Below are positions 4,101-10,501 of a DNA stretch of 21,852 nt, in pieces (positions within the stretch are counted from its first letter, which is position 1; every line of letters begins with the position of its first letter). The stretch covers positions 41,488 through 63,339 of the forward strand of contig NW_003133351.1 in the NCBI RefSeq assembly GCF_000003605.2. The letters run 5' to 3'. The position numbers and the translations under genes are program-made. Source of the stretch: Saccoglossus kowalevskii (lineage: Eukaryota > Hemichordata > Enteropneusta > Harrimaniidae). The notes under the pieces were generated by a model that was not told the origin of the DNA, did no database searches, and saw nothing but the letters and a program-made list of their open reading frames with translations.

Positions 4101-7100
4101 TTCTAACTAAACAGAAATAACATTGAACAAGAAATGCAGGTTGACATGAACTTGTAAATAATTGTTGGCGATAGAGCAAAAGTAATTTGTACAACTTACC
4201 AGCATCTACGATAGCGGGTTTGTTGCTTGGACACACTGACAGCACTTTGAGTACACGACTTGTGGTCCACAGTAACTTCTCGTACGTGTAGCTTCTCATG
4301 ATGCGTACCAGTTCAGCAGGACCACCACTTGCAAGGATTATCAGCTGTGCAAAAAAAAAAACAATATTGTCAGTGTTAGATATTTTACTGTATTTCAAAA
4401 TAATGATACAGTAATACTTTGAGAGTAACACTTTAATATGCATGTTATTAGTGTCTTGCCTTGTGGAGTAATTTCTGAATCATTTATCTGTGAAGCATTG
4501 TAATTGAAACATGCAATATTTGTTAATCGCTTTATTCATTACGTTTTATACAAGTTCAATAATACTGTATTCCGACATTGTTGCAAAATACGGATCCTGA
4601 ATTGAGACTACGACATGAATGCGAACGTGATAGAAACCACCGCAGTGTGTTCTTTTGTTTCAATTTTTATATTTATCCAATTAGATGCTTTCCCACTAAT
4701 TTTCTTACACGGTCAAGAGTTTATCGATGTATATCAAGGGCATACTGCCAATTCTGTATCATTCTTACAATTTGTGTTTTATCGTTGAAATCGAGTTGTA
4801 AGTCTCCGAATTGCCAGCGGGTTTTCCATTAGTGAGTAAATCCTGAGTTTATTATTAAGTCGTTCTGTGGTGATTGGTGCTGGTTGTGTAGCAGATAATT
4901 TTGCATACTACATTTCGTTACATTTCCATAACCGCAACATATCGTCCCCCACATGCCTAGTTACCAAACATCACTTTAATGCAAGAAGGTAAATTTGAGA
5001 TAATATTTTGAAGTGGTGATCTAGGCTCAATTAAATTTCTTTAGTCTGCTAGGCTACCCAGTTTGAAAAGTTAGTCTTAATTTCAAGTCCTGGGTGTTTA
5101 ATAGTGTCATTAAAGGAGTTGCATGATCACTTGTGAAATGTTATAGACATGATTGTCAGTAAATCGTATTATCACAGCAAATCCACTATTTGATTATGAA
5201 AAACAAGGACTGAATGTAATCATTATTAAGCAATTCTGTTTTTTTAATGCTATAAATCTACAACAAAACAAGTCTTACCTTGGATTCTTGGTTGCCATAG
5301 GCAAGGATCTGTAAACAGTCTGTAGTGATGGCCAGGAATTTAACATTATTTCTCTGGAGAAGAGCCACCATTTTTTGTAGTCCGCCAGCTAGACGTACGG
5401 CCATCTTGGATCCTTCTTGGTGAAGTAGAAGGTTATGCAGGGTTGTGATAGCATAGAAAAGAACCGACTCTACTGGAGAACTGAAAGCAGAAACAAAGTG
5501 AATGTTCAGTAAATAAGTCTAACAGACAAGAGTAAAACTAAATGCAGATTTCATTACAAACTGTCAATGGTCATTTTCAAGACTTTAAATGACTGTACAA
5601 GCCAAAACGAGAATTTATACTCATTACTTTAAAATAAAATAGGGCGTATAGTTTCTGCTAGTTCTAACACAGGAATCATGAGGGTGAGCATAGTGATAAA
5701 CTGGAGAAAACTGCTTTTCAAACCATAGATATAGGATTCAAATTCTTATGAATTCAATACATTTTTTATTTTCCCTCGTTTGAACCTTGGTACTCAGAAT
5801 AATTTGAAACTTACCTCAATAACTTGACCAGGGCTGGAATACCACCTGACTTGAAGATCGATAGTAAACCTTGTCGGTGGTGAGAGAGATTATGTAATGT
5901 TCCCGCTGCACATCTTGTTGTCTCCACGTCGTTCGTGTTAGCCATGGCACGAACCAGTGCTGCCACCATTTGTGGGGAGTTCATAATAGCATGACGACTG
6001 GCTTCTTTTTTAGATAGCTGATGAACCATCATAGCTGCTTGACTGACGACAACCTTTGACAACCAATGACAGTTTTGTTACAAAGCAAATCAGTATACCA
6101 GAATATTGAAGCATTTGACCTCTTTTTCGCACTGTTAAGTGATTTTATAAAAACAATAAAATTTTGCTGCAGGCTAATATTGGTGTACACAAGAAACTGA
6201 AAATCTTACCTGGTCTTCATCGTTGAGCAGTTTGGTTAGTTCTGGTATTGCTCTTGTGGCTAGTTCTGCATCGTCTTGATAATTAATAAGATTTACAACA
6301 GCATGTTTCAGCATTTGGGATGGTTCTGCCAATCTCTGGACTGCTGTAGGGTGCTGTGGGTCAAACTGCGTGGAAGGGATCTGAACACCCTCGTCCAAGG
6401 TCTCGGGGAACATGGCAGCACGTACACGTTGGGAGCGTGTCTGATTGAGCTGCTGGTTCATTTCTGGAAAAGAAAGTTTTTAAGAGTCTACCATTACAAC
6501 CAGGCTATTGCAGAAAGCCATTGAACAAGAACCAGAATATGTAATTCTGTGCAGAAATTGTGAAAACACTCCCATCTAAATTACTCTTACCATCAACCTG
6601 TTCCTGGGTATAATATCCTCCTTGGTCCCAGTTTCCAAACATAGCTTGGGCACCTGCAGCATCAAAATCATCATCATCTGGATGGCTTTTACTACTGAGA
6701 GATGGTGCATTTGTGGTGACTCCACTCTGAATACCAGAATCCCAGCCATGTTGTTGCCATTGCATTGTGTTCTGCATGGGATCTTGTTTAGGCAGGTCTT
6801 GAGGGTCAATGTACTCTTTTGATGTAATGGTGGTTGTGGTGGTGGTAAAGGTATAGTTTCCGCCTTGGCGACTGCGTACTTGCTCTATTTCATTTTCAAT
6901 GCTCCTGTACAGACAGGTAAATAACAATCAGATGTGTCGAATATTTTATTTCATCAGTAACAATATTTTTTTACAAAACATATCGGTACCAATAATGGCC
7001 TAAATGCTCTAATTTTGTGACAGGGCATTAACTTCGAAGTTTAGAAGACATTATCGAAATGGCCTTATAGCATAACATGAGAAATATCAGTAGACATCAA

Positions 7101-10501: not shown

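Follow-up and report, generated by a model that had tools for sequence, protein, structure and literature searches.

The 21,852-nucleotide (nt) stretch of Saccoglossus kowalevskii DNA analyzed here (contig NW_003133351.1, positions 41,488 to 63,339; hereafter, the window) contains a complete beta-catenin gene on the minus strand, with 14 coding exons that run from position 10501 to position 1009 and encode a product of 878 residues ending in WFDTDL (Table 1). The structure of the gene is established: all 13 introns have GT-AG borders, and the frame is open across the 14 exons to the stop codon. Beta-catenin is apparently single-copy in this genome, because only two of the 15 genomic matches to the whole protein fall outside the gene's own contig, and both are weak (E 0.002-0.003); the other 13 lie on that contig. 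The distinctive part of the protein is its N-terminus, where a predicted helical hairpin precedes a conserved Wnt degron.

We measured the extension against PDB chain 2z6g, a full-length beta-catenin from zebrafish. Residues 21-780 of 2z6g align with residues 98-878 of the acorn worm protein (1232.9 bits), such that the degron, the alpha-catenin-binding region, the Armadillo repeats and the C-terminal WFDTDL are all matched, whereas residues 1-97 lie outside the alignment and are absent from the vertebrate chain. The Trp of the degron region (WQQ...DSG) is residue 25 in 2z6g and residue 102 here; the 101 residues ahead of it are encoded by exon 1, exon 2 and the beginning of exon 3. Relative to this canonical vertebrate CTNNB1, the acorn worm therefore has ~77 extra N-terminal residues, plus one or more additional 5' exons; a first-pass annotation of the sequence put the addition at ~70-95 residues. 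That annotation also counted two additional coding exons; exon 2 is clearly additional, but exon 1 occupies the position of the small ATG exon of vertebrate genes. Residue numbers further on are offset by +77, such that Y219 in NLINYQDD corresponds to vertebrate Y142, the alpha-catenin-binding Tyr, and R546 corresponds to R469. The degron is conserved, with all of its CK1/GSK3 phospho-sites kept (DSGIHSGATTTAPS in 2z6g), and Lys125, which lies downstream of the degron and is equivalent to human Lys49, is intact.

Exon 2 looks truly coding. When codon scores were trained on the remainder of the beta-catenin gene, exon 2 scored +18.6 bits in frame 0, as against -13.0 and -30.1 bits in the other two frames. 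As chance intervals we took open stretches of the form AG...GT[AG]AG, 90-250 nt long (14 of them in the 11 kb upstream and seven antisense; introns 1 and 2 contained none), and not one of the 21 matched the score of exon 2. The outcome was the same with a second training set, from which one of two extra open reading frames (ORFs), L006, was left out because it read as unknown residues: exon 2 scored +15.4 bits, again with 0/21 intervals as high. The part of exon 3 that encodes the Thr-rich linker has a neutral codon score (+0.6), yet is continuous with the frame of the degron. Only 8 of 1440 GT sites score at least as well as the exon 1 donor, and 7 of 1440 as well as the exon 2 donor; the corresponding counts for AG sites are 36/1131 for the exon 2 acceptor and 60/1131 for the exon 3 acceptor, with the tested sites themselves included in each count. 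The coding score of exon 2 and the splice-site ranks lead us to reject a wrongly extended ORF and a chance exon; the first-pass annotation had argued against the former from a frame that passes through both splice junctions, a strong ATG context and an upstream in-frame stop. Each of those features is indeed present: the context is ACAGCCATGG, and the nearest in-frame stop 5' of the ATG is a TGA ten codons upstream.

These data also bear on where translation begins. Were exon 2 skipped, the third codon of exon 3 would read as a stop in the exon 1 frame, and exon 2 is therefore required if the exon 1 ATG is used. Most transcripts might instead begin just before exon 3 and be translated from Met96 or Met100, which lie immediately before QWQQ and would yield a short tail ahead of the degron, such that the N-terminal module is rarely made. 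We consider there to be only a slim chance of this, since exon 3 begins with a tiny upstream ORF (ATG AAA TAG), and exons 1 and 2 show coding bias and are bounded by good splice sites. Further upstream, we found no convincing additional exon between positions 10640 and 21852, where each of the 14 exon-like intervals has a negative coding score, and the presumed 5' untranslated region (UTR) exon 5' of position 10555 was not located.

The N-terminal module is predicted to be a two-helix antiparallel hairpin of ~56 residues (11-66), rather than one long coil. Two single-sequence AlphaFold2 runs, made on monomers, give helices at residues 11-40 and 42-64 or 42-66, with block means of the predicted local distance difference test (pLDDT) of 85-96 over residues 11-60; beyond the hairpin, confidence is low across a Thr-rich linker of ~35 residues, after which comes the degron, fully conserved. 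Helix 1, apart from its first residues, is encoded by exon 2, together with the N41-P42 turn and the first half of helix 2. Using a re-implementation of COILS with a 21-residue window, we obtained P >= 0.7 over approximately residues 9-67, except at the turn (0.3), and the score was reached by 5 of 500 shuffles of residues 8-68. The two amphipathic helices joined at N41-P42 in the first-pass annotation are recovered in the prediction, and the a/d series that it listed for helix 2 (L48-M52-I55-I59-V62) is there in the sequence. It also proposed a dimerizing or partner-binding module; the model overlays several solved antiparallel hairpins at 1.3-2.4 A over 48-59 columns, such that a dimerizing parallel coil is only one option. 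The predicted antiparallel two-helix shape resembles that of modules such as Rop and the SerRS arm; the overlays are all without significance (E >= 2.9), and they exclude no family.

Searches with the module did not place it in a known family. The best E value in the PDB was 0.13. In Pfam, the best match was to a generic family of coil hairpins (E 0.0074 and 0.0011) and fell short of the family cut-off, and the N-terminal domain of Siah-interacting protein (PF09032) scored 14.2 bits (E 0.053), where the cut-off is 23.5. Among prokaryotic and viral contigs, 33 and nine stretches fit a pattern, none of them a relative. These searches covered no animal genomes, and are silent on other animals. 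An origin of the exon from a repeat or a paralogue was rejected, because neither a 1,101-base query from the exon 2 region nor the protein module matched anything in the genome other than this gene among the best candidates scored.

Table 1. Features of the beta-catenin gene in the window.
Feature	Position	Strand	Details
Probable 5' UTR end, in the same exon as the ATG	10502..10555	-	Acceptor-like site before 10555; in-frame TGA at 10531-10529
Coding exon 1	10460..10501	-	42 nt; residues 1-14; helix 1 begins at residue 11; strong ATG context, good donor, coding score +4.7 bits
Coding exon 2	7570..7685	-	116 nt; phase 0 in, 2 out; residues 15-52 and two bases of codon 53
Coding exon 3	6591..6904	-	Encodes the last part of helix 2, the linker and the degron
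End of helix 2, codons 53-66	6865..6904	-	Predicted; the helix starts at 42 and ends at 64 or 66 in the two AlphaFold2 runs
Thr-rich linker, residues 67-101, with Met96 and Met100 (possible alternative starts)	6760..6864	-	Low pLDDT; sequence
Conserved degron, residues 108-123, with equivalents of S33, S37, T41 and S45	6694..6741	-	Alignment to full-length chain 2z6g
Coding exons 4-14: alpha-catenin-binding region, Armadillo repeats, C-terminus	1009..6463	-	Gene model; alignment to end of 2z6g

We propose, with moderate confidence, that this is an ordinary, apparently single-copy hemichordate beta-catenin that has gained an N-terminal hairpin serving as an exposed binding handle, with its destruction unchanged. 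The hairpin would have been acquired through at least one extra 5' exon, and the disordered Thr-rich linker would leave ~40 residues between it and a CK1/GSK3/beta-TrCP degron that is unchanged. From there it could bind itself or a partner; two hairpins could, for example, pair as a Rop-like four-helix bundle, and the handle would then alter the location or the partners of the beta-catenin assembly. Phosphorylation-dependent destruction would be expected to run as usual, because the degron and Lys125 are intact and the hairpin is flexibly tethered.

The position of the hairpin directly ahead of the degron invites the opposite suggestion, that its chief role is to tune degradation, by shielding the degron or by changing the choice of ubiquitin acceptor. 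Human Lys19 has no equivalent at the corresponding place in the acorn worm protein, in which the nearest Lys upstream of the degron is K92, 17 residues before Ser109 with no Lys between; vertebrate Lys19 is closer to the degron. The choice of acceptor may therefore differ. Nonetheless, none of the four phospho-sites of the degron has been lost, nor has Lys125, and ~40 low-confidence residues separate the hairpin from the degron, such that we regard degradation tuning as very unlikely to be the main function. As a separate observation, the run of Thr residues in the linker may be a target for phosphorylation or O-linked N-acetylglucosamine.

Several observations weigh against a gained hairpin handle. 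With a 28-residue window, the COILS score was reached by 72 of 500 shuffles and the weighted P was only 0.45; moreover, the program was not specific, giving P of 0.9-1.0 near residues 153 and 215 as well. In addition, a long N-terminus is not unique to the acorn worm. We judged distribution among animals from published residue numbers relative to human or vertebrate numbering, as given in the cited papers. Y221 of the ctenophore Mnemiopsis corresponds to vertebrate Y142 (PMC13245172), an offset of +79 as compared with +77 here; this is a likeness in length, known from residue numbering and not from content, in a distant lineage. Other animals appear to differ. Beta-catenin of the sea urchin Paracentrotus has 823 residues and a TCF-contact pair at 487/488 (PMC11661853), an offset of +18 if this pair corresponds to vertebrate residues 469/470 (PMC11613877). 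The scallop protein has 836 residues, and the position of a fragment that starts at residue 378, with a primer encoding SSNKPA, indicates an offset of ~+27 (PMC4280107); the scallop amplicon has 64 codons from the end of the degron to MFP, versus 56 here. Unless there are compensating deletions elsewhere, sea urchin and scallop would have about 49 residues before the degron, and therefore no obvious room for a 56-residue hairpin plus linker. The simplest reading is that the hairpin was gained in the hemichordate lineage, although two comparison species and one counter-length make for thin evidence, and the hairpin is probably a lineage-specific add-on. The first-pass annotation had suggested that the arrangement may exist in spiralian entries; the host is a hemichordate, and the scallop numbering argues against a general spiralian feature. 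A spiralian host was rejected on the mitochondrial contig of the genome (C4830; 17,037 bases): it carries COX1 in inverted orientation, ND2 between ND1 and the rRNA region (placed by position), a tRNA-Lys with anticodon UUU, ATA at five of nine Ile sites of COX1, and its single AAA at a Lys site. For Saccoglossus kowalevskii, COX1 inversion, relocation of ND1 or ND2, the UUU anticodon, ATA read as Ile and AAA read as Lys have been described (PMC3121625), which fits a Saccoglossus-type hemichordate. Among the matches listed for beta-catenin and catenin literature, mostly from outside subscription journals, and in passages of individual papers, we found no N-terminal coil or hairpin reported in a beta-catenin. 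Saccoglossus kowalevskii is named among the sequences of one study (PMC5643146), so such a sequence is very likely present in databases.

Variation of this kind is also what would be expected if the extension were a neutral or near-neutral spacer, in which case this lineage would simply have a tail that tends to form helices but serves no partner of its own. The N- and C-termini of beta-catenin are described as variable in two studies (PMC11613877, PMC4280107), the length of the N-terminus differs between animals (~+18 in sea urchin, ~+27 in scallop and ~+79 in ctenophore), and the module has no family match in the PDB or Pfam. Neutral tails, however, seldom retain a strong coding bias such as that of exon 2, a regular hydrophobic pattern and confidently predicted helices, and we consider a spacer unlikely, though a serious alternative.

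We also considered a specific source for the module, namely the exon for the N-terminal coiled coil of the p120-family protein delta-catenin, acquired through exon capture or shared ancestry and working as a regulatory coil. We identified a delta-catenin gene in the same genome, on contig C993, by its Armadillo match and by delta-catenin motifs. Its coil is interrupted by an intron after ...SVKEQ near C993:1136473 (donor GTACGT, boundary inferred), and its coil exon (C993:1138489-1138601, locus L035) is 113 nt long, similar to the 116 nt of beta-catenin exon 2, both with phase 0 in and 2 out; this match is from one genome and was chosen after the fact. The best local alignment score between the module and the delta-catenin coil, 48, was reached by 2/3000 and 0/3000 shuffles, by 7/5000 and 23/5000 simulated coils, and by 0/128 and 0/65 myosin windows, which were taken from 24 of 53 listed myosin-tail sites. 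Moreover, the coil exon is the top plus-strand ORF (>= 25 residues) in the 60 kb around delta-catenin. The exon-matched alignment scores 37, which was reached by 10/5000 shuffles and 27/5000 simulated coils, but also by 14/807 and 6/807 overlapping natural myosin windows, and the alignment that scores 48 (beta-catenin residues 47-63) is a different one. Furthermore, a search of the whole genome with the module recovered, among the best candidates scored, nothing but the module, such that delta-catenin was chosen by prior expectation, and the delta-catenin coil is a single stretch whereas the beta-catenin module is predicted to be a hairpin. With controls this mixed, the coil exon is only suggestive as a source. 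In both cases the module sits at an N-terminal site in an Armadillo protein, on exons alike in length and phases and suggestively similar in sequence; delta-catenin is not known to have a degron. A delta-catenin origin is, in our estimate, distinctly unlikely, and the same doubt attaches to its boldest form, that hemichordate beta-catenin captured this exon to become a hybrid catenin with a p120-type regulatory coil right before the Wnt degron. If true, beta-catenin could share coil partners with delta-catenin and could bring the cadherin complex's two catenin arms together in a single chain. The p120 coil, for its part, is described as omitted through alternative starts (PMC3013132).

Few animal proteins are as conserved as beta-catenin, whose stability is set by its N-terminus. 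An added folded module in one deuterostome lineage would be a natural experiment in what the degron tolerates without loss of Wnt control, in an animal group in whose embryos beta-catenin has already been knocked down (Saccoglossus; PMC5786327). It also cautions against the assumption that the N-termini of invertebrate beta-catenins are plain disordered tails; a cross-phylum study of beta-catenin omitted both termini from its alignment (PMC11613877).

The window has other features of note. Human SNORD49 genes reside in a different host gene; here, a SNORD49 C/D-box small nucleolar RNA (RF00277) lies on the minus strand at 3668-3743, in the intron between coding exons 8 and 9, and its 62.4 bits exceed the gathering score of 37. 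Intron 12 contains a perfect 47-bp tandem repeat of 3.2 copies (1618-1767), and the end of the window (21741-21852) has a 59-bp tandem repeat of 1.9 copies, plus a long run of G.
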